A DNA stretch of 13,305 nt from Actinomycetota bacterium (GTDB taxonomy: Bacteria > Actinomycetota > CADDZG01 > JAHWKV01): positions 1 to 13,305 of the forward strand of contig JAHWKV010000004.1 of the NCBI GenBank assembly GCA_019347725.1. The letters are read 5' to 3'. The notes under the pieces are model-generated. The model saw only the letters and a program-made list of their open reading frames with translations. It did no database searches and was not told where the DNA came from. The translations under genes were made by a program, and so were the position numbers. Positions 1-13,305 of the stretch are shown piece by piece (position 1 is the first letter of the stretch; each line of letters opens with the position of its first letter).

Positions 1-788
1 CTGCTATCTGCTACTCCATACTCCTCCGCAAGCGCCAAAGGCTCCGACTCACTGCACAGTGTTACAGCGACCTCGTAGGTGTTTTGGACCAGTGGGTCAT
101 CGAAGCGGCTCTCTTCATTGGTTGCACTACCCTCAAGATCCGGCACCGATGATGCGGGCTCCGGATTGCGCTCACCTAGGAACTCAAACGAGCCGAGTAT
201 CCGGTCGAAGTCCTCGGCAAGTCCGGTGTAGTTCTGTTCGGGAAACGCCTGGAAGGTCAACGTGTAGGCGTTGTTACCCCGGAACAGGAAGTGTTTGACG
301 TGAACGCCGACCCGGCCGGCTTCGTCTTCGAACCTATAGATATACGTCCAACCCTGTACGTCCTGCACCCGAATCCGGCGGCGCTGGATGATCTCGACGA
401 CCCCGGGCATCGACTCGACGGTTCGGTCCAACACGTCCTCGACACCCGAAACCAGCTCCGGGCGAGTACGCGAGTTGATAGTCACCGGCTCGTCAAGGGT
501 CAGCGTAGATACGCTTACTGCATTCTCTGTACCGGGAGGAGTGGCCAGAAAATCTGGATCTCCTGCGCCCGAGCGAGCTTGACCCTCGACCCACGTGGCC
601 GGGTAGGAGATCCGGAAGCCGTTCTCCTCATCGGTAAAAGATTGATACTCGCCGGCCTGATTTCCGGGGTCGTCGCTACCGGGCTCGGCTTCGGAGTCGC
701 CCGCCACCAGGTAGTACACGGCTGCAGCCACTCCCACGATCAAAGTGGCTCCGGCCAGCGTGAACGCCATGAGCCGACGTTTGTTCAT
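1..788 (-). CDS. PsbP-like N-terminally anchored exported protein (3' end outside window)
   Basis: The frame is open from an ATG at 788 to the window edge (262 codons and 2 bases), so the C-terminus is missing. The start is supported by an AGAGGG Shine-Dalgarno 6-7 nt upstream. Residues 1-6 are basic (MNKRRL) and 8-29 form one hydrophobic segment, a signal anchor with no lipobox cysteine, so the rest should face outside. After an acidic, Gly/Pro-rich linker (30-50), residues 51-204 read like a PsbP/Mog1-type small alpha/beta domain: a GFRISYPATWVEG start, a central WTYIYRFEDEAGRVGVHV strand pair, then YTLTFQAFPE and a closing FDRILGSFEF. In non-photosynthetic bacteria such domains are common in exported proteins of unknown role. 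A second linker (205-227) leads into a further segment (NTYEVAVTLCSESEP) cut by the window. It lies 91 bp downstream of the FtsH-like gene on the same strand with no obvious terminator between, so co-transcription is possible. The domain call is from memory of the family pattern, not a search. Confidence 0.72.
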   Translation of the reverse strand, partial: MNKRRLMAFTLAGATLIVGVAAAVYYLVAGDSEAEPGSDDPGNQAGEYQSFTDEENGFRISYPATWVEGQARSGAGDPDFLATPPGTENAVSVSTLTLDEPVTINSRTRPELVSGVEDVLDRTVESMPGVVEIIQRRRIRVQDVQGWTYIYRFEDEAGRVGVHVKHFLFRGNNAYTLTFQAFPEQNYTGLAEDFDRILGSFEFLGERNPEPASSVPDLEGSATNEESRFDDPLVQNTYEVAVTLCSESEPLALAEEYGVADS

Positions 789-879
789 CGAAAACCCTCT
801 TTCGCTCTCACCCGACCGGCCGGATTGCGCTTAGCAGCCTATCGGGGGCCTCGGATACGGAAGGTGAAAGCCTAAACGC

Positions 880-2427
880 TCACGCGGAGAAGCTCGATCG
901 GTCGCCCAAACGCTCCGTGAGATTGGTCACCGCAGCAAACTCGCTCTCCTCGATCCGCAGGTCCGCCAGGCCGGCCAGTCGTGCCACCTCGTCCACGCTG
1001 AGGGTCTCTCGTTCGATCAGGCCCTCGGCCACGGCCCTCAGCCGCTGAGAGTTGTCCTGGATGATCGTCATGGACGCCTGCTCGGCGCGCTTCATGAGCT
1101 TCCTGACCTCCAGGCCAGAAGCCTCATCGGGACGCGAAAAAAGGTCACGGCCATTGTCAGTGCCGGAGAACTCGTACTTGCCGGTCATCGCCCAGCGTTC
1201 CACCATCTTGCGTGCCAGCGCACTTGCCTCGCGCAGGTCATCCTCCGCTCGTGTGCTCGGCTCCCCGAACGTGTACAGCTCAGAGGCGACGCCGGCAAGA
1301 AGGACCATGAGCTTGGCCATCAACTCGCGCCGGGTCATCACCTGACCGTCTTCCGCGGAAGACCACATCGACCTACCCGAATCCCCGATCCTGCCGACTA
1401 TCGACACCCGGGCGACGGGTTTCACGCCCTTTAGCAGCAGCGACAAGAGTGCATGTCCGGCCTCGTGGTAGGCGATCAGTCGCTTTTCCTCGTCGCCCAT
1501 AGCCCTGCCGCTGCGCGGACCGGAGACCGCCCGGTCCATCGCCTCGTCGACTTCCTCGCTGCCTATATAGTCACGCTGCCTGCGTGCGGCCAGAAACGAT
1601 GCCTCGTTGATGATATTAGCCAGTTCTGCGCCGGTGAGACCGACGGTGCGCTTGGCGACCGAAGCCCAGTCGATGGATCCGGAGCACGGCCGCTTAGCGG
1701 CATGAAGCCTAAGAATTTGCTCGCGGCCCAGCACGTCCGGACCGGACACATGAATCCTTCTATCGAATCTTCCCGGCCGCAACAGCGCGCCGTCGATCAT
1801 CTCCGGACGGTTGGTGGCCCCTATGAGCACCACTCCGGAATCGGCGGAGAAGCCGTCCAGCTCAACCAGCAGCTGGTTAAGGGTGTGGTCGTACTCCCGT
1901 TCTCCGGCCGCCTCCGAGTTTCTCCGGCGACCCACGGCGTCAAGCTCGTCGATAAAAACTATGGCGGGGGCATTCTTCTTGGCTTCGTCAAACAGCTGGC
2001 GCACTCGAGATGCTCCAACTCCCACGTACACCTCGACGAAGCTGGCCGCGGACACCGAGTAAAAAGGAACGCCGCCCTCCCCCGCCAGGGCTCTGGCCAG
2101 CAGGGTCTTACCGCTGCCCGACGGGCCGTACAGCAGAAGTCCGTGCGGAAGCTGAGCGCCAAGGTTTTGGAATCTGGTGGGATCGGTCAGGAAGTCCTTA
2201 ACCTCCCGAAGCTCGGCAATGACCTCGTCGAGCCCGGCGACATCCGCAAACGTCACACCGGTTTCGTGCGGCGTGGTCTTGGTCTTATCCGCCTTAAAGG
2301 AGTTGATCGACTTGAAGCCCTCCATAGCCTTCTTATTGGAAAGCCGAACGGCAAAGTAAGCCCCGACCAGTATTAAAAGGGAAGGGATCCAAAAAGCCGG
2401 GCGCAGCGCGGTGTCGAGTAAGCTCAC
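880..2427 (-). CDS. ftsH: FtsH-like AAA+ zinc metalloprotease, short single-membrane-pass form
   Basis: This is a 515-aa membrane-anchored ATP-dependent protease of the FtsH type. One hydrophobic segment (about residues 12-28) is followed by a short linker and the AAA+ module: Walker A GPSGSGKT (101-108), pore loop FVEVYVGVGASRVR (130-143), Walker B IVFIDELDAVGR (156-167) and the second region of homology IGATNRPEMIDGALLRPGRF with arginine fingers R220 and R223. The peptidase domain has the zinc motif HEAGH (321-325); D397 in STRAEDDL matches the third zinc ligand of E. coli FtsH. All catalytic residues are present. Differences from ordinary FtsH (600-700 aa) are the absence of the ~75-residue extracytoplasmic domain and second membrane helix, Ser for Pro in Walker A, Tyr for Phe at the pore position, and GVASELY where GRxAEE is usual. 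The start is GTG at 2427 with AAAGGA 5 nt upstream; the ATG just before it runs into a stop. It is probably a specialised paralogue beside a standard FtsH elsewhere, which is inference. Confidence 0.9.
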   Translation of the reverse strand: MSLLDTALRPAFWIPSLLILVGAYFAVRLSNKKAMEGFKSINSFKADKTKTTPHETGVTFADVAGLDEVIAELREVKDFLTDPTRFQNLGAQLPHGLLLYGPSGSGKTLLARALAGEGGVPFYSVSAASFVEVYVGVGASRVRQLFDEAKKNAPAIVFIDELDAVGRRRNSEAAGEREYDHTLNQLLVELDGFSADSGVVLIGATNRPEMIDGALLRPGRFDRRIHVSGPDVLGREQILRLHAAKRPCSGSIDWASVAKRTVGLTGAELANIINEASFLAARRQRDYIGSEEVDEAMDRAVSGPRSGRAMGDEEKRLIAYHEAGHALLSLLLKGVKPVARVSIVGRIGDSGRSMWSSAEDGQVMTRRELMAKLMVLLAGVASELYTFGEPSTRAEDDLREASALARKMVERWAMTGKYEFSGTDNGRDLFSRPDEASGLEVRKLMKRAEQASMTIIQDNSQRLRAVAEGLIERETLSVDEVARLAGLADLRIEESEFAAVTNLTERLGDRSSFSA

Positions 2428-2482
2428 ACCATTCCTTTACAGTCGGGTAAGTGAGGACAAAACATCTGTCGATGAGGTCAAC

Positions 2483-2510
2483 ATTCTAGGTTACATAGAC
2501 ATAAGTTCAA
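2483..2510 (-). promoter_or_regulatory. Candidate sigma-A/70-type promoter for the FtsH-like gene
   Basis: On the minus strand there is a -35 TTGAAC (2510-2505), a 16-nt spacer and a -10 TAGAAT (2488-2483), each one or two bases from consensus. It lies in an AT-rich patch between the upstream terminator and the GTG start at 2427, giving a leader of about 50 nt. It is the only good promoter-like match I see in this gap. Confidence 0.5.
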
Positions 2511-2553
2511 TGACTGCAGATGATGGCCGGCCTTTAAATTAGATTTTGTAGAC

Positions 2554-2591
2554 ACAAACAAGCCCGGTGGGAGTCCACCGGGCTTGTTTGT
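2554..2591 (-). terminator. Strong hairpin terminator after the small membrane-protein operon
   Basis: A perfect 17-bp inverted repeat (2554-2570 with 2575-2591) closes a 4-nt loop. The core is CCCGGTGG/CCACCGGG and the outer stem is A/T-rich. On the minus strand the 3' arm ends TTGTTTGT and runs into GTCTAC. It sits about 60 nt past the stop of the 93-aa gene and before the ftsH-like promoter, so it should separate these two units. The same structure could also act on the other strand. Confidence 0.8.
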
Positions 2592-2613
2592 TCATGCCTC
2601 GACTACTACTCGT

Positions 2614-2667
2614 TTGGCCCTTCGGCCTGTTAGTTGGCCCTTCGGCCTGTTAGTTGGCCCTTCGGCC
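2614..2667. repeat. 20-bp tandem repeat, 2.7 copies, overlapping a stop codon
   Basis: The unit TTGGCCCTTCGGCCTGTTAG occurs at 2614-2633 and 2634-2653 without mismatch, followed by a 14-base partial copy at 2654-2667. Each copy carries a small GGCC-CTTC-GGCC hairpin. The TAA stop of the 93-aa membrane protein (2650-2652 on the complement) lies inside the array, so its last residues (GRRAN) are encoded by the partial copy and the rest of the array is 3' untranslated, just ahead of the terminator hairpin. Confidence 0.9.
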
Positions 2668-2931
2668 GGGCTGAGCCACGATCTTCTCGGTAAGGCCGTA
2701 CAGCAGCGGCAGCGCTCCGGCAATGACGCCCAGCGTGCGGTTGATCTGTCCGACTCCGGGAATGATGGGCTCGACGTGTGCCACGATGCCCGTAACCGTG
2801 GAGGACGAGTCCGCCAGGTTGGCGTTGATGTTGTTCAGCCGGTTGGAGATGAGGATCAAAAACAACGCCAGCACCCCCACCAGCGCAGCAATGTCGATGA
2901 TGGTCAGCAGTGTCAGTAGTCCGATGCTCAT
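2650..2931 (-). CDS. Small single-pass membrane protein (93 aa), third of a tandem trio
   Basis: The protein has an N-terminal membrane segment (about residues 5-28) and a short C-terminal part with spaced hydrophobic residues (LNNINANLADSSSTVTGIV), and a Gly/Leu-rich stretch around 64-80 that may dip into the membrane. The Arg just after the membrane segment (SNRL) suggests N-out, C-in topology. Its ATG at 2931 overlaps the upstream gene's TGA (ATGA), with a GGGAGA Shine-Dalgarno, so translation is coupled. The overall layout resembles small DUF948-type proteins, but I cannot assign a family. Function is unknown; co-expression with its two neighbours implies a shared membrane role. The C-terminus and stop lie within a 20-bp tandem repeat. 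Confidence 0.72.
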   Translation of the reverse strand: MSIGLLTLLTIIDIAALVGVLALFLILISNRLNNINANLADSSSTVTGIVAHVEPIIPGVGQINRTLGVIAGALPLLYGLTEKIVAQPGRRAN

Positions 2932-3239
2932 GCTCTTCTCCCGATCTTGGGCCTGCCTGCGCCCGAGGTCATAACTCTGGTCAAAAACAGGTGGTGCTGC
3001 AGACCTTCGTTCAGCACGTCGTCGACCCCGGATGCGGTCTCGGCTATCAAGTAGGTGGCCGAGGTGTTGCCGGACACCCGGTGCAGCGTGTCGCGTACGC
3101 CGATAACTCCGTTGTCGATGTCCTGCACGAGCCTAAGCAGCAGGGTCAGCAGTGCGATAACCACCAGCACGACCACGAACCCGATGCCCAGCGCTACGTA
3201 CCAGAAGGTGATCTCTGAGTAATGAAATCCATTCGTCAT
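2928..3239 (-). CDS. Small single-pass membrane protein (103 aa), second of a tandem trio
   Basis: After a short polar N-terminus (MTNGFHYSEITFWY) comes one strongly hydrophobic segment (about residues 15-35), then LLRLVQDIDNG and an amphipathic region, ending in a basic tail (RPKIGRRA). Positive charge follows the membrane segment, so the C-terminus is probably cytoplasmic. The tail after the membrane segment shares spacing with its upstream neighbour: I, then L at +11, V/I at +14 and Asn-Thr at +17, suggesting duplication. The ATG at 3239 follows the upstream stop by a few bases, with a GGGGGG stretch serving as ribosome site; the TGA overlaps the next ATG. No known domain recognised. Confidence 0.72.
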   Translation of the reverse strand: MTNGFHYSEITFWYVALGIGFVVVLVVIALLTLLLRLVQDIDNGVIGVRDTLHRVSGNTSATYLIAETASGVDDVLNEGLQHHLFLTRVMTSGAGRPKIGRRA

Positions 3240-3242
3240 TGG

Positions 3243-3518
3243 CTAACCCCCCAATCCCTTCCGGACGCCGAGCATGCCTTCCACGATGGCCCGGGCGTGA
3301 TTCACAGTAGTCTGCAAATCGGCGAGCGGGGTCGTGTTGGTGAAAATCTGCTCGAGGCCCTCAATAGCCGACTGGGCCTGGGTCCCGATCTTGCGGGCCA
3401 GCATGAGGATGGCCTGCACCTCAACCACGATCACCACGATGATGGCGAAGGCGATGGCGAATCCGAGATACCACCCGAAAAGGTGGGGTTCACCCGGTAT
3501 GTGTGCCGCTAAATTCAT
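3243..3518 (-). CDS. Small single-pass membrane protein (91 aa), first of a tandem trio
   Basis: First gene of the three-gene unit. The start is an ATG at 3518 with GAGGAG about 5 nt upstream. Residues 14-33 form the membrane segment, followed by LMLARKIG (positive, so C-in) and an amphipathic, probably helical or coiled tail (QSAIEGLEQIFTNTTPLADL) ending in MLGVRKGLGG. There is no enzyme motif and no cysteine. It may form complexes with the other two through the tails; this is inference from the shared layout. An upstream promoter candidate at 3696-3725 would give a leader of roughly 170 nt. Confidence 0.72.
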   Translation of the reverse strand: MNLAAHIPGEPHLFGWYLGFAIAFAIIVVIVVEVQAILMLARKIGTQAQSAIEGLEQIFTNTTPLADLQTTVNHARAIVEGMLGVRKGLGG

Positions 3519-3695
3519 AGGTCTCCTCTCGAGTACCTCTCAGCCCCCGCCCGCCTGACAGCGTTGCTGGGGTGCCTGCCCGAAACCCTTTTCCGGCCAA
3601 AAACCCAACTGGGCCCCTCACACACCGGCACGAAGAGTCGAACTCCCTCGGCGCTCGATTCTCCGGATGATGCGGGAGTATCTTACCGTAAGGGA

Positions 3696-3737
3696 ACGAT
3701 AGTCCAGATGACTGTCAGCGGTCAATCCTTATTTTTC
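3696..3737 (-). promoter_or_regulatory. Candidate promoter with A-rich upstream element for the small membrane-protein operon
   Basis: On the minus strand there is -35 TTGACC (3725-3720), an 18-nt spacer and -10 TATCGT (3701-3696). Directly upstream of the -35 is GAGAAAAATAAG, an A-tract placed like an UP element. It is the only such AT-rich patch in the gap and faces the 91/103/93-aa genes. Confidence 0.42.
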
Positions 3738-3781
3738 TCGCGCTGAGGGTGGTAAGCCCAAAGCGAGGAACGCAGTCGATC

Positions 3782-3833
3782 GGGCACCAGGTGCGTCGTG
3801 CCACGAACCGCAGCGGTGCCCTTGAGAGGGCAC
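3782..3833 (-). terminator. Hairpin cluster after the giant gene, weak or factor-dependent terminator
   Basis: Immediately after the TAA at 3836-3838, AGGGCAC (3827-3833) can pair with GTGCCCT (3816-3822) across a 4-nt loop. The segment GGTGCCC (3815-3821) can instead pair with GGGCACC (3782-3788), enclosing a smaller TCGTG/CACGA hairpin. The two folds exclude each other. There is no T-run, so a normal intrinsic terminator is uncertain. Confidence 0.35.
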
Positions 3834-3835
3834 TG

Positions 3836-6800
3836 TTAATCCCAGCGAACGAGCTCTTCCAGTTCCTGGACGTCGAAGAACCTCAACAGCTCGATGGCCG
3901 CATTCCTCACATCCTGGTCCGCACTGCCCATGGCGTTGGTGAGTATCGTCCTCGCATCCTCCGCCAGCGCCAGCAAGCTTGTGCTGTCCTGCTCGGAAGA
4001 CAGGATCATTCCCAGGCAGTTGACGGCTCGCTCGGCAAAGGACTCGTCCAGCTCCTTCAGACGCGCCACAACCGGCACGGCGCCGTCGAGCTTCACGCCC
4101 ATCTCCAGCACGGAGCTCAACTGCGAAAGCGACCAGGAATCGTCCAGCTTGCCGGAGGCAAACCACCATCCGAAAGCAGATAGCTCGTCCGCGTAGTCCT
4201 CCGGCGCTCTCGCCTTCTTCGCGGCGGCTAGACGCCTTTCCCACAATGTTCGCATTCTCAGCAACAGGTCCCGCGGCACCTTGCCCTGCTGACCTTGCTG
4301 CCCCTGTAACGAGCGGCCAATGAACGCCAGGGCGTGGCGCCTGAGCTTTGGATGCGCGGAGGCGAAAAACTGCTGCAGAAGGCCATAGCGGTCCAAGGCC
4401 AGGCGGCCCCGCAGGTAAAACACCATCAGGTGCTCGGCCAGACGACTCTCGGGCGTTGGGACGTTGGCCGGCCGTTCATTGAACCGGTCGATCAGTGTAA
4501 CGGCCCTCTCGTAATCCTCTCCCAGCACATCCAACAGATAGTCGTATGGGGGGCAGAAACTGATATGGCCCTCCCAGGCCGCATCCCGCAGGTACTCGAG
4601 TTTCGGGTCGGTCGGAAAGACTTGCCGAAGCTTGCTGTTTCCCCAATTCGGGTCGAGCATCAGCATCCATGCGAACCATCGTCCGTAGACGGCCCGAATT
4701 GCCGCTTCCGGGTCTTTGTCAGGATCCAGATGGCTCTCCAGAACCTCCAAGACCTCTGGAATCTCGTGCAGACCGCGACTCATCCGCTCGCGGGCGTTGG
4801 GGCTCGATTCGATTTGCCGCCGCACCCACAAGGCGTAGCGCACCACTGCGTGCATCGCCTCACCCCGCACGCTCGACGAGGATCGCACCGAGGCATCGAC
4901 CGCTCCGGCGGCAGGGCCCTCTGAAGGATCGGGGTCGTCGGTTAGAGGCCTGATGACGTTCCAAGCAGCCTGACGGTACACGTCGGGGATCTGCGCCGGA
5001 CCCTGCGCCAAACCACGCGAGAGCAAACGTGCAATTTCCAACCGCGCCGGCCTCCAGCGCGCTGCTTGCGCTCCCGGCTTGACGGAAACGGCCCACCGAC
5101 ACAGCTCCAGGACGGGTTCCCACTCAAAAGCGGTGCCTTCTGCAGCTTCCTGCAAGCCGCGTACGACCGCCCAAACGTAAATCGGGTCCTCGCCCACAAA
5201 ACTGGCCGCGCCCAGGGCGAACCGGACGGGCTCGGAGGCGGTCACGGCCGAGAGCTTGCGTGCGAGCCCCTCAACCGTGGGGTTGCCCAAGCCCGGGGTC
5301 GGCTGGAACGAGCGAGCAAAGCTCACGATTTCCGCTACGTCGAGCTCATGCAGCTCTTCGGCTTGCAGCGGTGTAGTGGGATCGGCGCGCGTCTGGGTAA
5401 CCGCGGAAACAAACTCCGCATTATCCGGCCGGCCCGCCTCCGCGGAGAGCTCCTCGTAGCGCTTCAGGTGTTCGCCGGAAAGCCAATCCGATAGCAGGTG
5501 TAGTCGCTTCAATATCCACCGACGTTCGTAGGTTTGACTGCCCTCGCCGGTCGAGTAGGCCTCGCTCAACTCCGGATCCGATTCCCACGTTTTCAGGTCC
5601 GGACCCTCGCCGACCCAGTCGAGGACCATAGCCTGCTGCTCGTCGGGCAGCCGGTCAAAGTGGTCCTGAGCGAGCAGCAGGTACTCGTGGTGAAGATGCG
5701 GGTCGTGAAAGAGGTGCCTGTCCACCATGCGCGGCTCTATCAAATTCTCCGCCTGGTCCGGCCATACCCGCAGGATGTGCAGGGCCACCCGTTGAAATAT
5801 CAGCCACCCCCGATTCTCCAGCGTTTTCACGAGCTCGGGAACCGCCTCGGGCTCTTCCCGTGCAATTTGCTCTGCAGTGTCGACCAACGCGGTTACCAGC
5901 GGGTCTCTCAAGGTCTTGTCCACGTTCTGCTCGTGTGGATGTATAGCAGGACGCCACAGGTGGGAGAAGTCTCTGGGGTGTTCCTGCTGGCCGGGTTCGA
6001 TCGACAGATCGATAGCCGATTCCAGTACGTCGGCCAGCAGATTCAGCGTCCCCATGGGGTCGGCGCTGACCAGCAGCGTCAGCTGCTCCGAGAGAATCTG
6101 CTCGTACTGATACTTGCCGAACCTCGCACGGGGTTCGGGTGGCGCCCAGTCGGCGTGCCTCACCGAGGTAGAGTCAAGCGGCTCGAGCTCCAATAGAACA
6201 GCGGCCAGTTCCAATGCTTCGGTGGTGCGCCCGCCTCTGGCCAGGTGCGTGACCAGTTCCCCGAGCTTCTCGGGTAGGTGCAGCAGATACGGAGACTTCA
6301 ACCACTCGCGAGCCCTCGGTACGAACTTAGCGGCCAGATCCCCAGGCAGAGCCAGGGCCGCGTCGGCCAGATCTTCGTGCACCAAGACGTTGTTTGTTTT
6401 AGGAATAGACAGGGCAACCTGCGCTACCTCCTGGGGATTCAGCGAGGCCATACGAGCTAGATACTGGGACTCCGGCCACGGCGGCGAAGAGATCGTGCCT
6501 TCCACGAAATCGAACACCGGCTCCGGCGGTGCCCGGAACATCCCCGCCTCCTGCAGCGGAACGACCCAGGCGGGATTCTGCAGGTTGTCGAAGAAGTGCC
6601 GTCGCTGCAGCGCGTTGGAGATGAGATCGGTGACCTTCCGCACCTGCCTGTCGGTGGGAGGAGGCCAGAATCGTAATGCGGCCGGAATCGCGGCCGGATC
6701 ACTGACGGGGGACTTGATCAAGCTTCCCTGCCTCACGTGAGCCGCCGGCTGACCGTCCACACGGCCCTTGCCCTGCAACATCGGAAAATGGACCCTGGGC

Positions 6801-8656
6801 GACCCGCCGGCCACCACCTTGTTGGGTTCAAAGCTGCGCCACACGGCAGCGCACAGCCGGCGCGTTGCCCTATCTGCAAGGTCCCCCGCAATCGCCACCT
6901 CGGTGGTCCCCGACAGCAAAAAGTCCATCGCCGCCAGCATCCCCGCCGACTCGACGAACTGCCCCTCAAGGTGCGCTGTGGTTGCATTAAGGGCTTCTGC
7001 GGCCTTGCGTTCGTACATCGAGTTTCCGGTGAGAACGCCCAATTTCTGCAGCACGCTGCAGGCCGCTGCGTAGCCGGAGATCAGCTCGCCGTCGAACCGC
7101 TCCTTGTGTCGGGGTATTACGCCGTCGCTCTCGCTGTTGGCGAACGGACCCGGGACCTCCGGGTCCCAAAATCGGTCCAGGATCTGCCGGCACAGCTGCT
7201 CGCAGTGCTGCGCCCACTCCGTCTCAAACGTCGTTTCCCAAAGGGTGAAAAGACCTTCGGCTACAAACGCGTAGTCCTCAAGCAGCGCCGGCGCCTTAGC
7301 GCCCCGGTGGTCCCCACTGCGGAGCAGCCGCTGTTGACCCGCGTCCCAGTGCCGGGACAAAAGAAACGATGCGGCCCGTCGTGCCGCCTCCACTAAATGC
7401 GGCAGATCGAGCGCCGCGCCTATCTCGGCAAGAGCGCCGATGGCCAAGCCGTTGTGTGCGGAGACGACCTGGTCGTCACGGGCCGGCGGGGTCCGCTCGG
7501 AGCGGGCCTTAAGCAATGCCGCCTTCACCGGTCCGGGAACCTCCTCTTCGGTGGCGTGCAGCACGTTACGACCGGAAAAGTTCCCGCGCTCGCTTGCGCC
7601 GAACAGGGCGCCGGCGCCTTCGACGGCGTCCTCCAGCTCGACCAACGACCAGGTGTAGTAATCGCCCTCCCGGCCCTCCGACACGGCGCCGAGGCCCTCA
7701 CAGAACGCCCCGCCTGGGTCGGCAAGATCACGCAACAGGAATTCACAAGTATCCAGGGCTACCTGCTTGTTTAAGGGTGCATCGTTTAGCTGCCATGCAC
7801 GCAGGTAGGTTCGGGCAAGCAGCGCGTTGAGGCCAAGCAACTTCTCGAAGCGGGGAACGGACCACTCGCGGTCCACGCTGAGCCGGTGAAATCCACCGCC
7901 GACGTGATCGTAGGTACCTCCCAGAGCCATCTGCTTTAGCGTCGTTTCCGCGACCAGCTTGGCCCTTGGAACACCTCTGGAGGCAACCCGCAACATGAAG
8001 TCGATAGCCGTAGGCATTGGCGCCTTGGGAGCCTGGCCAAAGCCGCCGTACTCCTCGTCAAATGCCGCCTGCAGTGCAAACACACCACGCTGGAGAAAAC
8101 CGGGGGTAACGGACTCGACTTCGGCAAGAGGCTGGTCCTGCACCTTTAGGTGGTCCACAAGCTGCGAAGCGCTGCCCAGCACCTCCCGACGCTCCTGCTC
8201 CCAGAGGCGGACGACCTCCTTGAGGATAGAGCTAAACGCTGGTATCTCTTTGTTGCCTACAGCCGGGAAGAAGCTGCCCCCGTAAAACGCCATGCCGCGG
8301 GCGTCGGTGAACAGAGTTTGTGGATGAGCAAGCTCTCCGGAAAGGGCGGCCAGCACCGGCGCAAAGTGCCGTTCAACGTCCGGCCGCAAAACGGCATCGA
8401 CCTTAACGCACACGAAGTGCTCGTTGAGGTAGGAGGCGACCCGTTCGTCCCGAAAGGACTCATCGTCCATACGGGCACACGAATGGCACAGCCCGCAGTT
8501 CACCGAGATCAATACTGGACGGACCAGCGCCGCCGCGCGCTCGAACGCCTCCTCGGACCACCCGAACCACTCCACGGGTTGGTCGGCCTGCCGTTTCAGA
8601 TACGAACTGGCCTCGTCGGCCAAACGGTTGCCGGAAGGTTCTTGCTCAGCGGTCAT
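3836..8656 (-). CDS. Giant YyaL/DUF255 thioredoxin-fold protein fused to a ~940-aa helical extension
   Basis: This uninterrupted 1606-aa protein has no signal peptide or membrane segment, so it is probably cytoplasmic. Residues 10-170 match the DUF255 thioredoxin-like domain: NRLADEASSYLKRQADQPVEW, then NCGLCHSCARMDDESF with the CHSC pair C57/C60, then VKVDAVLRPDVE and FYGGSFFP. Residues 186-660 follow the YyaL/SPATA20 layout of an alpha/alpha barrel related to N-acylglucosamine 2-epimerases: FDEEYGGFGQAPKAPMP, YDHVGGGFHRLSVDREW, RDDQVVSAHNGL, LLEDYAF, and a closing VRQGSLIKSPVSDP. Ordinary YyaL proteins stop near here (~690 aa). Residues 665-1606 continue as a helical-repeat-like region opening with RRHFFDNLQNPAWVVPLQEAG, PPWPESQYLARMA and TNNVLVHEDLADAALALP; I recall similar wording in the C-terminal parts of large STAND/NACHT-type proteins but cannot confirm it. 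No P-loop or nuclease motif is seen. QGQQGQQG (1451-1458) is low-complexity. The ATG at 8656 lacks a clear Shine-Dalgarno. Exact function unknown. Confidence 0.85.
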   Translation of the reverse strand: MTAEQEPSGNRLADEASSYLKRQADQPVEWFGWSEEAFERAAALVRPVLISVNCGLCHSCARMDDESFRDERVASYLNEHFVCVKVDAVLRPDVERHFAPVLAALSGELAHPQTLFTDARGMAFYGGSFFPAVGNKEIPAFSSILKEVVRLWEQERREVLGSASQLVDHLKVQDQPLAEVESVTPGFLQRGVFALQAAFDEEYGGFGQAPKAPMPTAIDFMLRVASRGVPRAKLVAETTLKQMALGGTYDHVGGGFHRLSVDREWSVPRFEKLLGLNALLARTYLRAWQLNDAPLNKQVALDTCEFLLRDLADPGGAFCEGLGAVSEGREGDYYTWSLVELEDAVEGAGALFGASERGNFSGRNVLHATEEEVPGPVKAALLKARSERTPPARDDQVVSAHNGLAIGALAEIGAALDLPHLVEAARRAASFLLSRHWDAGQQRLLRSGDHRGAKAPALLEDYAFVAEGLFTLWETTFETEWAQHCEQLCRQILDRFWDPEVPGPFANSESDGVIPRHKERFDGELISGYAAACSVLQKLGVLTGNSMYERKAAEALNATTAHLEGQFVESAGMLAAMDFLLSGTTEVAIAGDLADRATRRLCAAVWRSFEPNKVVAGGSPRVHFPMLQGKGRVDGQPAAHVRQGSLIKSPVSDPAAIPAALRFWPPPTDRQVRKVTDLISNALQRRHFFDNLQNPAWVVPLQEAGMFRAPPEPVFDFVEGTISSPPWPESQYLARMASLNPQEVAQVALSIPKTNNVLVHEDLADAALALPGDLAAKFVPRAREWLKSPYLLHLPEKLGELVTHLARGGRTTEALELAAVLLELEPLDSTSVRHADWAPPEPRARFGKYQYEQILSEQLTLLVSADPMGTLNLLADVLESAIDLSIEPGQQEHPRDFSHLWRPAIHPHEQNVDKTLRDPLVTALVDTAEQIAREEPEAVPELVKTLENRGWLIFQRVALHILRVWPDQAENLIEPRMVDRHLFHDPHLHHEYLLLAQDHFDRLPDEQQAMVLDWVGEGPDLKTWESDPELSEAYSTGEGSQTYERRWILKRLHLLSDWLSGEHLKRYEELSAEAGRPDNAEFVSAVTQTRADPTTPLQAEELHELDVAEIVSFARSFQPTPGLGNPTVEGLARKLSAVTASEPVRFALGAASFVGEDPIYVWAVVRGLQEAAEGTAFEWEPVLELCRWAVSVKPGAQAARWRPARLEIARLLSRGLAQGPAQIPDVYRQAAWNVIRPLTDDPDPSEGPAAGAVDASVRSSSSVRGEAMHAVVRYALWVRRQIESSPNARERMSRGLHEIPEVLEVLESHLDPDKDPEAAIRAVYGRWFAWMLMLDPNWGNSKLRQVFPTDPKLEYLRDAAWEGHISFCPPYDYLLDVLGEDYERAVTLIDRFNERPANVPTPESRLAEHLMVFYLRGRLALDRYGLLQQFFASAHPKLRRHALAFIGRSLQGQQGQQGKVPRDLLLRMRTLWERRLAAAKKARAPEDYADELSAFGWWFASGKLDDSWSLSQLSSVLEMGVKLDGAVPVVARLKELDESFAERAVNCLGMILSSEQDSTSLLALAEDARTILTNAMGSADQDVRNAAIELLRFFDVQELEELVRWD

Positions 8657-8685
8657 CGATTGCAGCAGAGAAGGGTTGTGGACAC

Positions 8686-8718
8686 AAAGCGGGCGCAGGG
8701 AACCCCTGCGCCCGCTTT
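8686..8718 (-). terminator. GC-rich hairpin between the 135-aa gene and the giant gene
   Basis: A perfect 15-bp inverted repeat (8686-8700 with 8704-8718) with a 3-nt loop; the stem is AAAGCGGGCGCAGGG and its complement. On the minus strand it starts 9 nt after the TAG of the 135-aa gene and ends in TTTGTGTC, the same tail as the terminator at 2554-2591. It lies only 29 nt before the giant gene's ATG with no room for a normal promoter between, so it may act as a partial terminator that lowers expression of the giant gene relative to the small ones, or shield the upstream mRNA 3' end. Confidence 0.7.
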
Positions 8719-8727
8719 AGCGAAGTC

Positions 8728-9135
8728 CTAATTTATGGTGTCGTAAACGTTATTGTTCGCACTACGCTGCAGCGGTATACGGTACGACGTAGTCCGTGGA
8801 CCCGACCTGGTTCCCGCCTTCGCGGGGAGGGCATTGAGGTCGCTGGCATTCGGGTACGACGTGTGCCGTGTGGAGTAAGCCGACCGGTTCCCGGCCGAAC
8901 CCCCTCCGGAGGTCAGCGCATAACCCAGTGCCTTGGTGGTGACGCCGCTCGATTTGCCTCCAGCGCCGGTGGGCGCCGCGTAGTTACCGCCGAGAGCGGC
9001 CTGCAACGCCGCCGGGCTGATACCGGAGGAGGAGCCTCTCCCCCCCCCGCCTGAGCCTGAAGCCTGCGTGCTGGCGGGAGCGGGTGCCTGCTGTGCCTCC
9101 TCACGCTTTTTGAGCTTCGGACGCTTCAACGCCAT
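8728..9135 (-). CDS. Small basic Gly/Ser-rich low-complexity protein (135 aa)
   Basis: I do not recognise this protein. It begins with a lysine/arginine block (KRPKLKKREE, residues 4-13), then an Ala/Gln/Pro stretch, a Gly/Ser tract (SGSGGGGRGSSSG, 26-38), a short possible helix (SPAALQAALGG, 40-50) and a Gly/Ser/Thr/Tyr-rich rest to a polar end (SANNNVYDTIN). It has no cysteine, no signal peptide and no membrane segment, and should be largely disordered and basic, as in nucleic-acid-binding or scaffold-like proteins (inference). Translation should be strong: GAGGAGG at 9141-9147 lies 5 nt before the ATG. It sits between the 131-aa gene and the giant gene on the same strand and is followed directly by a strong hairpin. 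It could be a partner or substrate of the thioredoxin-fold protein, but only position supports this. Confidence 0.65.
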   Translation of the reverse strand: MALKRPKLKKREEAQQAPAPASTQASGSGGGGRGSSSGISPAALQAALGGNYAAPTGAGGKSSGVTTKALGYALTSGGGSAGNRSAYSTRHTSYPNASDLNALPAKAGTRSGPRTTSYRIPLQRSANNNVYDTIN

Positions 9136-9211
9136 TTCTTCCTCCTCTACTCCACACTTACAACGAAATCCTAAAAGACGATCCTAATTTATCGCTTTAG
9201 CGAGCTTAAGG

Positions 9212-9607
9212 TTACTCCGACTTCGGCTTGCCTGCTGGCGACTCCTCGCCGGACTTCTTGGCGGCGTCCTTCGCGGTGTATTCGCCGAGCTTTCCGTCCA
9301 TCGCCAGCTGGGACTTCCAAGCGTCCTTGAACTTGGTCGCCGCCTCGCCACGATCGAACGTTGGCTCATTGGTCTCGGCAAAGTCGGAGAACCCAACGTT
9401 GGAGCTTGGGTCGCCACCCTGTGCCTGGAAGGTTGTTCCGATGGCGTCGTCCTGCGAGGGAGCGCATCCGCTGCCACCGCCCTCTTCTTCCTGGCCCAAT
9501 CGGTCGGCCGAGTCCATCTGGCCGGACATGGACCATAAAGCGCGCAGTGCTTCTCGAGCATTAGCGGCGTCGTCGTCTCGAGCATTCGCGGCGTCGTCTT
9601 CTGGCAT
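9212..9607 (-). CDS. Small acidic-to-lysine-rich protein (131 aa) with an N-terminal duplicated octapeptide
   Basis: I do not recognise this protein. It starts with an acidic in-frame duplication (DDAANAR then DDDAANAR, residues 4-18) leading into a probable helix (EALRALWSMSGQM, 19-31), a Glu/Gly linker with the only cysteine (GGGSGCAPS, C48), a middle of polar and aromatic residues, a possible helix with AATKFKDAWKSQLAMDGKL (89-107), and a Lys/Ser tail (AAKKSGEESPAGKPKSE). There is no signal peptide or membrane segment. The ATG at 9607 is preferred to the GTG at 9616 because GGAAGGAG (9623-9616) lies 8 nt from the ATG but overlaps the GTG itself. It heads the minus-strand run, 76 bp before the 135-aa gene and without a clear terminator between, so the two are likely co-transcribed. 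An overlapping frame at 9184-9585 is Arg-rich with no ribosome site and is taken as a shadow. Confidence 0.6.
   Translation of the reverse strand: MPEDDAANARDDDAANAREALRALWSMSGQMDSADRLGQEEEGGGSGCAPSQDDAIGTTFQAQGGDPSSNVGFSDFAETNEPTFDRGEAATKFKDAWKSQLAMDGKLGEYTAKDAAKKSGEESPAGKPKSE
9552..9599 (-). repeat. 24-bp in-frame tandem duplication in the 131-aa gene
   Basis: Two adjacent 24-base copies (9552-9575 and 9576-9599) differ at two positions. Each encodes an acidic octapeptide of the form DDAANAR plus one residue. The length is a multiple of three, so copy number could change without breaking the frame. Confidence 0.85.
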
Positions 9608-9615
9608 ACACGACA

Positions 9616-9623
9616 CTCCTTCC
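9616..9623 (-). promoter_or_regulatory. Ribosome binding site deciding the start of the 131-aa protein
   Basis: GGAAGGAG on the minus strand lies 8 nt upstream of the ATG at 9607. Its last base is the first base of the GTG at 9616, so that GTG cannot be served by it. Confidence 0.7.
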
Positions 9624-9858
9624 GGTTGGCCGGTGGGCCAATAGGCGGCTCTTATGCTGTCTATATATCAATCCTAACCGTTGCCGGAGGATATCGTAGC
9701 CAGCGACCCCGAGTTCTCCTGGGCGAAAACCGCAATGGCGTCCCCCAAATGTATCGAAACCACGGCTCCACGCGTCATAAGCTTCGGGCTAATACAGCGC
9801 CTCCGGGTGCCTGGATCCCCCAAACCGGATCCGGCCGGCCCAACAAACAGGGAGATAA

Positions 9859-10413
9859 TTGAGCACCAAAGACCTCTCATACATCGCAATATTTGCCGCC
9901 CTGGTGGCCGCGTTAGGCCTTTTCCCGCCGATCCCGGTACCGGTGATACCTGTGCCCGTTACTGCGCAGACAATGGGCGTGATGCTCGCGGGCTCCATCC
10001 TTGGTTCCAAACGGGCGGGCCTCAGCATGCTGGTCTTCCTGGCGCTGGTCGCTCTTGGCGTACCCGCGCTGTCGGGTGGTCGAGGTGGCCTCGGAGTCTT
10101 TGCAGGCCCCAGCGGAGGGTTTCTCCTGGGATGGCCCATCGGGGCGTTTGTTATCGGGCTGTTTACCGAGCGAAACTGGGACCGCTACAACACAGCCCGA
10201 GGCGTCGTTTTCAACCTGATCGGCGGCGTCGGCGCCGTCTACGCTTTGGGGATACCCTGGCTCGCTTGGGTGAGCGACGTCGCAATTCATCAGGCTGCAG
10301 CGGCCTCCGCGGCGTTTCTGCCCGGTGACAGCGTCAAGGCCATCGCCGCGGCGTGGGTCGCCGTCGCCATAAAACGTGCTTACCCGTTGATCGAGAGCGC
10401 CTCCGCCCGGTGA
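9859..10413 (+). CDS. bioY: Biotin ECF transporter S component BioY
   Basis: This 184-aa integral membrane protein is the biotin-binding subunit of an energy-coupling-factor importer. It has five to six hydrophobic segments. Family features are clear: IPVPVTAQTMGVMLAGSILGS (30-50) with the conserved Pro-Val-Thr-x-Gln stretch, then GVPALSGGRGGLGVFAGPSGGF (67-88; GPSGG where GPTGG is usual), and the late FLPGDSVK (153-160). Length is normal for BioY. The start is TTG at 9859 with GGGAG 4 nt upstream; no other start candidate lies before the first membrane helix. It is the first gene of a four-gene operon with an acyl-CoA ligase, bioM and bioN. No biotin-repressor operator that I can identify is visible in the divergent gap 9608-9858, only a CCGGATCCGG palindrome at 9825-9834. 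Confidence 0.95.
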   Translation: MSTKDLSYIAIFAALVAALGLFPPIPVPVIPVPVTAQTMGVMLAGSILGSKRAGLSMLVFLALVALGVPALSGGRGGLGVFAGPSGGFLLGWPIGAFVIGLFTERNWDRYNTARGVVFNLIGGVGAVYALGIPWLAWVSDVAIHQAAAASAAFLPGDSVKAIAAAWVAVAIKRAYPLIESASAR

Positions 10414-11909
10414 AGCACCAAACTGCCAACCGGTCACAACTGGTCACCGGACGCATTCTTGCCCACGGTGAGGCGATGCCGGACAAAACTGCATTGATCG
10501 TCGGCAACCGCGTTATCTCGTACGGATTTCTTCTAGCTCAGGCCGAGAAGATGGCGTCGACCCTATCCTCGGCAGCGCCGGCGCCTCGGGTCGGAATCCT
10601 CACCACCGATCCGCTGCAGCTCCTGGCCGGCTTCCTGGCTACAGGCCTGTCCGAAGGCACCGCCGTCGTCTACGACCCCGCTTGGACCCGCCGGCAGCAA
10701 TGCAGTGCAATGGAACAGGTCGGTGTCGATACTTTCGTGACCGAACCCTCCGGCCGTCGCCGCCTCGAACAGATTGCACAGCTGCCCAAACCGACATCTA
10801 ACGGCAGGTATGCCCGCGGGGCGGTAGCACCCAAGGGCACCCTTGCGGACTTCTACGTCGGCTTTACCTCGGGTACCAGCGGCACTCCCAAAGCTTTTTC
10901 ACGAAGCCACGCCTCGTGGCTGGCCAGTTTTCATGTGGCTCAGCAGCAATTTGACCTTTGCAAATCCGACCGGGTGCTCGTCCCGGGCGCTTTGCACCAC
11001 TCCCTTTTCTTGTTCGCAGCCCTGCAATCCCTTTGGATGGGCGCCACCGCCTGCGTCCTGCGCAGGTTCAATCCTTCCGGGCTGGTGCGGGCCGTGGAGC
11101 GTAGTCCCATTACCCGAGTGTGGGCGGTACCCACCATGCTCGCCGCCGCAGAACCCCGACTGAGGACAGTCGAGGAGGACAGCTTGCTCAGCGTGCGCGG
11201 GGTGTACTGCAGCGGCTCCGCCTGGGCCCCCGACCAACGCCGGCGCTGCTCGGGCACCTTCCCTCGAGCGGAAGTGGTCGAGTTCTACGGATCCAGTGAG
11301 CTGAGCTTCGTAGCCTTTGCCTCCAGCCGGGACGAGGCGGTCGAACCCGGATACCTGCGGCCATTCCCCGGTGTCGATCTCAGCATTCGGCCCGAGGATC
11401 CCCCGCGCCCAGGCGCCGGCGGGCTCATATACGTGCGCAGCCCCCTGCTCTTCAGCGGGTACCACTCCCCGGAGCCAGCGGGCTTTGCCCAAGACGGCCA
11501 GGGATGGATAACGGTCGGCGACATTGGCCACCTCAACACCGAAGGAGCTTTAAAAGTTACGGGACGCGCCACCAGCACCCTGATCTGCGGCGGCCAGAAC
11601 CTCCAGCCTGAGCCCATCGAGCACTGCCTTGAGCAAGTCGAGGAGGTTGCGGACGCAGCCGTGGTTGGCATTCCGGACCCGCTATGGGGGCAAAAACCCG
11701 TCGCGCTCGTGCGGTGGCGCGCCGGCTCGCAGCCACTGGCGCGCAGCGCGCTGGCATCGCACTGCCGCCGGGAACTGGGGCCCGGCGCCCGACCCCACGA
11801 CTTCAAGCAGGTGAGCAGCCTCCCGCGCACCCCGAGCGGGAAGGTGGCACGTGGCGAGCTGGAGCATCAGCTCGCCACCGGTGCTATTCCGGCACAGGCG
11901 ATTACATGA
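10410..11909 (+). CDS. AMP-forming acyl-CoA ligase (adenylating enzyme) within the biotin transport operon
   Basis: This 499-aa enzyme of the acyl-CoA synthetase (ANL) superfamily activates a carboxylic acid with ATP and transfers it to CoA. Visible motifs: P-loop FTSGTSGTPK (152-161), EFYGSSE (291-297), TVGDIG (368-373), the hinge region GRATSTLICGGQN (385-397), and C-terminal TPSGKVARGEL with the catalytic lysine K478. Length is normal for the family. The frame is open from 10353, but the GTG at 10410 overlaps the bioY TGA (GTGA) and is preferred by analogy with the other junctions; it has little Shine-Dalgarno of its own, as expected for coupled translation, and an ATG at 10476 is an alternative. 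The substrate cannot be read from sequence. Its place between bioY and bioM suggests pimelate or a related biotin precursor, or a fatty acid in biotin-dependent metabolism; this is inference. It is not BioW, which belongs to a different fold. Confidence 0.9.
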   Translation: MKHQTANRSQLVTGRILAHGEAMPDKTALIVGNRVISYGFLLAQAEKMASTLSSAAPAPRVGILTTDPLQLLAGFLATGLSEGTAVVYDPAWTRRQQCSAMEQVGVDTFVTEPSGRRRLEQIAQLPKPTSNGRYARGAVAPKGTLADFYVGFTSGTSGTPKAFSRSHASWLASFHVAQQQFDLCKSDRVLVPGALHHSLFLFAALQSLWMGATACVLRRFNPSGLVRAVERSPITRVWAVPTMLAAAEPRLRTVEEDSLLSVRGVYCSGSAWAPDQRRRCSGTFPRAEVVEFYGSSELSFVAFASSRDEAVEPGYLRPFPGVDLSIRPEDPPRPGAGGLIYVRSPLLFSGYHSPEPAGFAQDGQGWITVGDIGHLNTEGALKVTGRATSTLICGGQNLQPEPIEHCLEQVEEVADAAVVGIPDPLWGQKPVALVRWRAGSQPLARSALASHCRRELGPGARPHDFKQVSSLPRTPSGKVARGELEHQLATGAIPAQAIT

Positions 11910-12616
11910 GCGCTGCATCCCCTCGGTCGCAGGTGATTCCGGGAATCCGGATAAGCCAGGTGACGCACGCCTACGGTGCTCGCACGGTACTCAAGGACGT
12001 GGATCTTAGGATCACCGAACACAAGACCGCGGTCATCGGCGGGAACGGGTCCGGCAAGAGCACCTTCGCCAGGCTGATCAACGGCCTCGTGATCCCCACT
12101 CAGGGCCGGGTGAGCGTAGACGGTATGGACACAAAAATCCAGGGCAAGCAGGTGCGCCGGCAGGTGGGCTTCGTGTTCCAGGACCCGGACGCCCAAATAG
12201 TCTTCCCCACCGTCGCCGAAGACGTCGCCTTCGGACTCAAAGCCCGCCGGGAACCCGCCGGCACGATTGTCGAGCGGGTCGCCGAAGTGCTCGACAAGTT
12301 CGGTCTCGGCGATTACGCAGACCACCCGGCCCACCTGCTGAGCGGCGGTCAAAAGCAGATGCTCGCACTGGCTTCCGTACTGGTGCTCAACCCCGCCTAC
12401 CTTGTTCTCGACGAGCCAATGACCCTGCTTGACCTCAAGAACAAACGCCTGATCACCGAGGTGGTGCTCGCGCTGGAGCAGCCGGTGGTCCTGGCCACCC
12501 ACGAGCTTGACCTGCTCAGCGACTTCCAACGCGTCGTGGTGCTCGACGGTGGACGCGTAGTCGCCGACGGGGCTCCTGCCGATAGCGTGCGCACCTACCG
12601 GAGGTTGATGGATTGA
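11906..12616 (+). CDS. bioM: Biotin ECF transporter ATP-binding protein BioM
   Basis: This 236-aa ABC ATPase powers biotin uptake with BioY and BioN. Motifs are complete: Walker A GGNGSGKST (45-53), Q-loop FQDPDAQIVFPTV (91-103) in the form usual for ECF ATPases, signature LSGGQKQ (145-151), Walker B YLVLDEP (165-171), D-loop TLLDLKN (173-179) and switch histidine H199 (ATHELDLL). The ATG at 11906 overlaps the ligase stop (ATGA). The frame is open further upstream, but those codons overlap the ligase and have no start context. Only one ATPase is encoded here, which fits a dedicated (group I) ECF transporter with a BioM homodimer. It carries no membrane segment and should sit on the cytoplasmic face. 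Confidence 0.94.
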   Translation: MSAASPRSQVIPGIRISQVTHAYGARTVLKDVDLRITEHKTAVIGGNGSGKSTFARLINGLVIPTQGRVSVDGMDTKIQGKQVRRQVGFVFQDPDAQIVFPTVAEDVAFGLKARREPAGTIVERVAEVLDKFGLGDYADHPAHLLSGGQKQMLALASVLVLNPAYLVLDEPMTLLDLKNKRLITEVVLALEQPVVLATHELDLLSDFQRVVVLDGGRVVADGAPADSVRTYRRLMD

Positions 12617-13221
12617 GCACTGCCCCTGCGCTCGGTATGTACCTGCCCGGAGACAGCATGCTGCATCGCACCGGCACCCGCAGGAAGATGGGGTTGCTGC
12701 TGGCCGGCGGCATCGCAGTGTCGTTCACCCGCGACCCCTGGGTGCTGCTGGTTGTCATAGCGACTCAGCTGGCGTTGGTCGCTTTCGCTCGCATACCGCT
12801 TCGGGTGCCTCTGCGCCAGCTGCGTACCCTGGCGCCGTTGCTGATGATCCTCTTGATCGCTCACGCCTGGCTCGATAGCTGGGAGGCCGGCCTGCTCGTC
12901 GACCTGCGCATCGTAGCTTTGGTGCTGGCGGCCACGGTGGTCACCCTCACCACCCGTACGAGCGAGATGCTCGGTGAACTAGAAATCCTTCTGCGTCCCG
13001 CCCGGTACGTCGGCGTTGATCCGGCCCGCGTGGCGCTGGCCATTTCAATGGCCATTCGCTTCGTGCCGCGCATCGCCCAAAAAGCTCAGCAAGTGAGAGA
13101 GGCTCAGCGGTCCCGTGGGGTGGAGAAAAGTTTAGCGGCCTTACTGGTTCCCCTGTTGATCAAGACCCTGCAAATGGCCGATCAGACGGCCGAAGCGTTG
13201 GAGGCCCGAGGGCTGGATTAA
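12613..13221 (+). CDS. bioN: Biotin ECF transporter T component BioN
   Basis: This 202-aa membrane protein is the coupling subunit that joins the ATPase to BioY. Hydrophobic segments lie at about 27-37, 43-59, 73-85 and 93-111, with a further hydrophobic stretch before the C-terminus. The two short cytoplasmic coupling motifs of ECF T proteins are seen as AQRSRG (164-169) and EARG (197-200), the Arg-Gly pairs that dock into the ATPase dimer. The start is TTG at 12613, overlapping the bioM TGA (TTGA), with GGAGG (12600-12604) 8 nt upstream, better than for the internal ATG at codon 9. Together with BioY and BioM it completes a full transporter, so no shared EcfAAT module is needed. Confidence 0.92.
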   Translation: MSTAPALGMYLPGDSMLHRTGTRRKMGLLLAGGIAVSFTRDPWVLLVVIATQLALVAFARIPLRVPLRQLRTLAPLLMILLIAHAWLDSWEAGLLVDLRIVALVLAATVVTLTTRTSEMLGELEILLRPARYVGVDPARVALAISMAIRFVPRIAQKAQQVREAQRSRGVEKSLAALLVPLLIKTLQMADQTAEALEARGLD

Positions 13222-13229
13222 CCACCGGG

Positions 13230-13305
13230 CTAATCGCCGTACCTCTCCTCCAGCGCTCGGTGGCCCGGTAGGTCGACTACCGCTTCGAAACCCTGGAAGG
13301 ACACC
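13230..13305 (-). CDS. Possible 3' end of a convergent gene (25 codons visible)
   Basis: On the minus strand a frame is open from the window edge to a TAG at 13232-13230 and reads ...FQGFEAVVDLPGHRALEERYGD. The composition looks like real protein rather than a shadow, and it lies convergent to bioN with 8 bp between stops. Twenty-five codons are too few to exclude chance, and I do not recognise the family. Confidence 0.35.
   Translation of the reverse strand, partial: VSFQGFEAVVDLPGHRALEERYGD

Follow-up and report, generated by a model that had tools for sequence, protein, structure and literature searches.

YyaL-type proteins (the DUF255/Thioredox_DsbH family, presumably the one also named SPATA20) combine a thioredoxin-like domain with a region that we take to be a barrel, and we know of no function assigned to YyaL/SPATA20. 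Dsr1 (defense-associated sirtuin 1) proteins carry a SIR2 domain and a C-terminal helical region. For DSR2, passages of PMC10973363 describe a helical C-terminal domain to which the phage tail tube protein binds and which then releases the SIR2 domain. We analyzed a 13,305-nucleotide stretch of an Actinomycetota genome (hereafter the window; assembly GCA_019347725.1, contig JAHWKV010000004.1, positions 1 to 13,305) in which a single minus-strand open reading frame (ORF; 3836..8656, 1606 residues, ATG start, no internal stop) encodes a YyaL/DUF255 part at approximately residues 5-667, followed in the same frame by a 939-residue extension. We regard it as an even call that this fusion is a Dsr1-type protein-binding sensor, captured once and vertically kept, and joined to a second YyaL copy that is non-canonical in the window's family.

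The frame is open throughout, as proposed in an earlier sequence-only reading that gave no strand, and the complete YyaL-type protein which that reading placed in the first ~660 residues is borne out by alignment. In the Pfam scan of the fusion protein, the thioredoxin-like domain (residues 10-170; 8147..8629, minus strand, as are all features of the fusion) matched PF03190 (DUF255/Thioredox_DsbH) with E 4.1e-43 and 147.6 bits against a 27-bit cut-off, and a C-H-S-C (CxxC) motif aligned at residues 57-60 (8477..8488). The barrel and tail follow at residues 171-667 (6656..8146), where canonical residues are often replaced. The solved YyaL-type structure PDB 7tkv aligned to residues 5-579 (E 4.1e-72), and standalone YyaL proteins of relatives cover fusion residues ~8-660; since these alignments and the Pfam match together span residues ~5-660, the YyaL part of the fusion is, at the sequence level, essentially complete.

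The extension (residues 668-1606; 3839..6655) is, judged by profile matches, the C-terminal part of Dsr1-type defense proteins. The PADLOC Dsr1 model PDLC04166 matched residues 752-1498 (E 1.7e-32), and the NCBIfam Dsr1 model NF041818 matched residues 872-1036 (E 2.9e-6) with 25.3 bits against a whole-protein cut-off of 1400 bits. The latter stretch takes in a W-R-P-A-I core motif (residues 901-905; 5942..5956) that is invariant in all seven aligned rows, and the other sequence blocks singled out by the earlier reading are likewise present. No Pfam family matched the extension above its own cut-off. The fusion protein as a whole had no NTPase family at E <= 1 in Pfam, in agreement with the earlier reading, and no SIR2 at the same threshold, with DUF255 at the N-terminus instead. 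The predicted structure of the extension is almost entirely helical (15-row alignment; mean predicted local distance difference test score 83.2, predicted template modeling score 0.55) and resembles HEAT/ARM solenoids, although the fold matches are generic. The earlier description of the extension as helical and repeat-like thus stands for its helical part, while its repeat-like part is reflected only in the likeness to HEAT/ARM folds and in a sub-threshold Pfam HEAT_2 match at residues 1530-1595 (E 0.031).

Recurrence of the fusion, which the earlier reading had named as a supporting sign, was found within one order. The window genome (G000, genus g1), G001, G003, G004 and G005 (genus g2), and G002 (genus g3) belong to family f1, and G006 and G007 to family f2. 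Six of these eight genomes carry the full fusion (G000, G001, G003, G004, G006 and G007); the five other full copies are 40-54% identical to the window's over ~1600 residues, and one lies on a 986-kb contig. In G005, the YyaL part runs to where the contig stops, and upstream of it lies the same pair of small genes as in the window. A separate YyaL of ~660 residues (37-40% identity to the window) is present in all eight genomes, with one in-frame TAA in G003 and a contig break in G007. The extension was detected in 6 of 24 searched genomes of the class, all 6 in this order, and in 11 of 396 genomes of a phylum sample at E <= 1e-10, 6 of the 11 being YyaL fusions. Across these searches, the fusion is restricted to one actinomycetotal order and one clade. 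In unrooted trees, the fused extensions formed one branch (support 100/100, 20 rows) and the fused YyaL parts fell on one side of a branch (100/99; 24 rows, 6 fused and 18 standalone). The simplest reading would be a single fusion event in the ancestor of the order, followed by vertical inheritance.

The two halves of the fusion have diverged to different extents. Between the window and G001, G003 and G004, the YyaL half is 44-45% identical and the extension 58-61% (extension-minus-YyaL identity against g2, +0.14; 95% interval 0.09 to 0.19), and the window's standalone YyaL averages 67% identity to those of G001, G004 and G005. We took as reference the 220 columns that are invariant in nine standalone YyaL copies: 86 are changed in the window's fused copy, 74 in G004, 76 in G001 and 73 in G003, versus 28 in G007 and 39 in G006. 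All four complete f1 members share changes at 44 of the 220, and 23 of these 44 are kept in both f2 copies. In the P-H-F-E-K motif, the histidine is arginine in the four complete f1 members and is kept in both f2 copies; the first cysteine of CxxC is serine (SxxC) in G001, G003, G004 and G005, while CHWC is found in the G006 and G007 fusions and in all 18 aligned standalone YyaL proteins. Ratios of nonsynonymous to synonymous substitution rates (dN/dS) were 0.14-0.40 in both halves and highest in the f2 extension, rough values since dS was 0.8-1.9. Because dN/dS is low and many invariants are changed, the f1 fused YyaL is, on substitution patterns, maintained under purifying selection, but not as a canonical YyaL.

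Elsewhere, the N-terminal partner of Dsr1-type extensions is SIR2 or one of two helical modules, the first of them HEPN-like; in a more distant case, it is a STAND NTPase. In the phylum sample, the HEPN-like module precedes the extension in G063 and G329 and a split SIR2 precedes it in G326 (Pfam); distant extensions have SIR2 upstream in G078 (Pfam) and G077 (by eye). In the careful extension tree, the two helical modules interleave, with at least two changes each forced by starred branches. Interleaving of SIR2, forced in a quick tree, was no longer forced in the careful repeat. Outside the order, neighbors of five carriers were scanned with Pfam: two proteins with the HEPN-like module (L038 and L041) adjoin type I specificity (HsdS) genes, one with the second helical module (L046) adjoins HsdR-like and HsdM genes, L044 lies beside an Eco57I/MmeI-type methylase, and G063 lies beside a GTPase and a DUF3644 gene. 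The L038, L041 and L046 proteins look like a defense add-on; we know of no description of a helical module with a Dsr1-type extension beside such genes. The pairing of this C-terminal region with several N-terminal modules predicts more defense proteins, notably HEPN-like ones by type I restriction genes. Two plasmid proteins were also observed: a haloarchaeal one (L078:4339-8820) combines an AAA/nSTAND1-like NTPase with a Dsr1-type extension and has in its vicinity a gene whose annotation is HEPN domain-containing, and a Streptomyces one (L077:5401-8682) combines a HEPN-like module (by eye) with the extension beside TnsA/TniB-type transposition genes. The earlier proposal of a sensor with exchanged partners is therefore supported by these relatives, with SIR2, HEPN-like, second helical and distant AAA/STAND partners and several carriers beside restriction or defense-type genes.

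Around the fusion, the neighborhood is conserved per family. A 135-residue low-complexity ORF lies directly upstream, 71 bp before the fusion (8728..9135, minus strand); its counterparts next to the G001, G003, G004 and G005 fusions are 60-64% identical to it, and G002, G006 and G007 gave no match. Further upstream is a 134-residue ORF (9212..9616, minus strand) with 48-56% identical copies beside the same four fusions, a weak match (E 7e-4) in G006 located 2.4 kb upstream of the fusion, and no match in G002 or G007. All five f1 carriers keep the order of 134-residue ORF, 135-residue ORF and fusion. Upstream of the fusion, genus g2 has biotin synthesis genes (by eye); in the window, positions 9859-13221 hold BioY, an ABC ATPase and an AMP-binding gene resembling acyl-CoA ligases (all by Pfam) as well as a CbiQ-like ORF (by eye), and this group is divergent from the fusion operon, as if biotin uptake stood in place of synthesis. 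The f2 copies have other neighbors in common, such as a CoxL-like oxidoreductase, and no biotin genes were seen near them (both by eye). Across 10 flanking ORFs at four fusion loci (window, G004, G006 and G007), PADLOC found no defense system; three gave partial matches that run through common domains (an AAA region to IetA and TRIP13, 71 residues to PrimPol and 45 residues to a CARF model), and the remaining flanking ORFs were read by eye. Downstream of the fusion, the window has three consecutive small ORFs (2650-3518; 91, 103 and 93 residues), each with one likely membrane helix by eye, one of which is recognizable downstream of the G003 fusion (L024:13132-13461). Beyond these are an FtsH-like AAA and M41 protease ORF (880-2427) and then a PsbP-family ORF (3-788), both by Pfam.

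By analogy with DSR2, the solenoid would bind a protein ligand, be it a structural protein of a phage or a partner inside the cell, and the resulting shift in conformation would be transmitted to the N-terminal module; the most likely role of the extension is that of a protein-binding sensor linked to this module. A phage ligand is no more likely than one that is internal or widely conserved, because most genomes of the order carry the fusion, its neighbors are conserved per family and the f1 extension is well conserved. A plain defense reading is weakened by the confinement of the fusion to one order-restricted clade, the conserved neighbors and the lack of a defense system in the scanned flanks, and also by the conservation of the f1 extension, which exceeds that of the YyaL part with its many lost canonical residues. 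The f1 YyaL module may act by binding or assembly more likely than by thiol redox chemistry. We infer loss of catalysis in this module, and a thiol redox or enzymatic output of the f1 fusion appears unlikely because canonical YyaL residues are lost. The redox- or carbohydrate-linked chemistry suggested by the sequence-only reading consequently finds no support in the window's family, though the window keeps its CxxC. In G006 and G007, where the YyaL module appears to be near a canonical enzyme, such an output is possible.

Several observations weigh against a Dsr1-type sensor fused once to a second, decaying YyaL. The window retains CxxC (CHSC), where its g2 relatives have SxxC. Within g2, the extension-minus-YyaL difference is small (+0.04; 0.003 to 0.075), and between the two f2 copies it is negative (-0.05; -0.10 to -0.003), the YyaL half being the better conserved one there. 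The top fold matches of the extension are importins and CAND1 rather than immune proteins, solenoid folds being generic, and the G006 extension is weak with the Dsr1 profile (E > 0.001 in the genome search, 1.7e-5 in the protein scan). Only limited sequence homology between the C-terminal regions of DSR2 and Dsr1 is described in the source passages at hand, so sensing by the extension is an analogy. Fused YyaL sequences sit on long branches apart from every one of the 18 standalone copies, and the tree therefore lends no support to the idea that the order recently duplicated its own YyaL. G002 (90% complete, family f1) has no fusion, only six full-length fusions are known, and the ligand and activity of the fusion are putative.

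Alternatively, the fusion may be a housekeeping scaffold whose extension no longer senses foreign matter and which forms a stable complex with the two small upstream proteins, perhaps tied to the biotin genes. This is a tentative but real possibility: there are six full copies and one cut copy in eight genomes of the order, the same two small ORFs lie upstream in five of five f1 carriers, biotin genes are nearby in f1 (BioY by Pfam, synthesis genes by eye), the 10 scanned flanking ORFs hold no defense system, and the extension is slow-evolving in f1. However, f2 copies have no biotin genes nearby (by eye), and in readable cases the extension's relatives beyond this order adjoin restriction genes or have a SIR2, HEPN-like or STAND module, the exceptions being L037 and L042, where a helical module stands alone without family assignment. 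Assembly or annotation could also have joined two genes artificially in a fragmented, incomplete genome (346 contigs, 64% complete), but this has a negligible probability and is ruled out by the same fusion in five other genomes, one copy on a 986-kb contig, each with a separate YyaL; the two-gene arrangement that the earlier reading had raised for related genomes was not what they contained.

The fusion is unlikely to be an anti-phage effector in which YyaL serves as a toxic or inhibitory enzyme, turned on by a phage protein on the extension as SIR2 is in DSR proteins. The same extension is joined to SIR2 and HEPN-like modules, and YyaL is near-canonical in G006 and G007 (39 and 28 of 220 invariants changed). 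Such an effector should keep its active site, yet 44 of 220 invariants are lost in all four complete f1 members; a separate YyaL in all eight genomes means that YyaL activity is not obviously toxic, and the scanned flanks lack a defense system. An integrated decoy, with the fused YyaL mimicking a phage-attacked host protein and the extension relaying the alarm, would fit the separate YyaL in eight of eight genomes (CHWC in the seven aligned) and the degenerate yet maintained f1 copy. It is nevertheless quite improbable, with no effector module left to answer the alarm and f2 copies that are not degenerate, and we know of no phage factor that targets YyaL. We would likewise give little credence to a domesticated immune receptor with bait, analogous to plant integrated-decoy receptors, in which a decayed YyaL would be coupled to a Dsr1-type sensor and the two small upstream proteins would be its downstream partners.

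The favored Dsr1-type sensor reading suggests that a sensor region apparently left defense islands and is now a vertically inherited cell component; the combination with YyaL pairs a known sensor-type region with a partner new to it, at a location that is stable and inherited, and the binding partner of the extension would point to the pathway of YyaL/SPATA20. Within open-licence literature (titles, abstract starts, and passages of PMC10952713, PMC10973363 and PMC12931631), no link of DUF255/YyaL to phage defense or to DSR1 appeared. Among described systems, STAND NTPases such as Avs4 have an NTPase domain that the fusion lacks, and the Avs4 fold match to the extension is tied with many unrelated solenoids. 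With the YyaL/DUF255 family (PDB 7tkv), the fusion has in common the thioredoxin-like domain and barrel-type region of ~660 residues, but the family is without the 939-residue extension; standalone YyaL proteins further differ from the window's fusion at the 86 changed invariants and have a tail C-x4-C that is absent from the four complete f1 fusions and present in f2. The C-terminal helical region is common to Dsr1 and the fusion, whereas no defense system accompanies the fusion in its scanned flanking ORFs, and where Dsr1 carries SIR2, the fusion has an N-terminal YyaL in its place.
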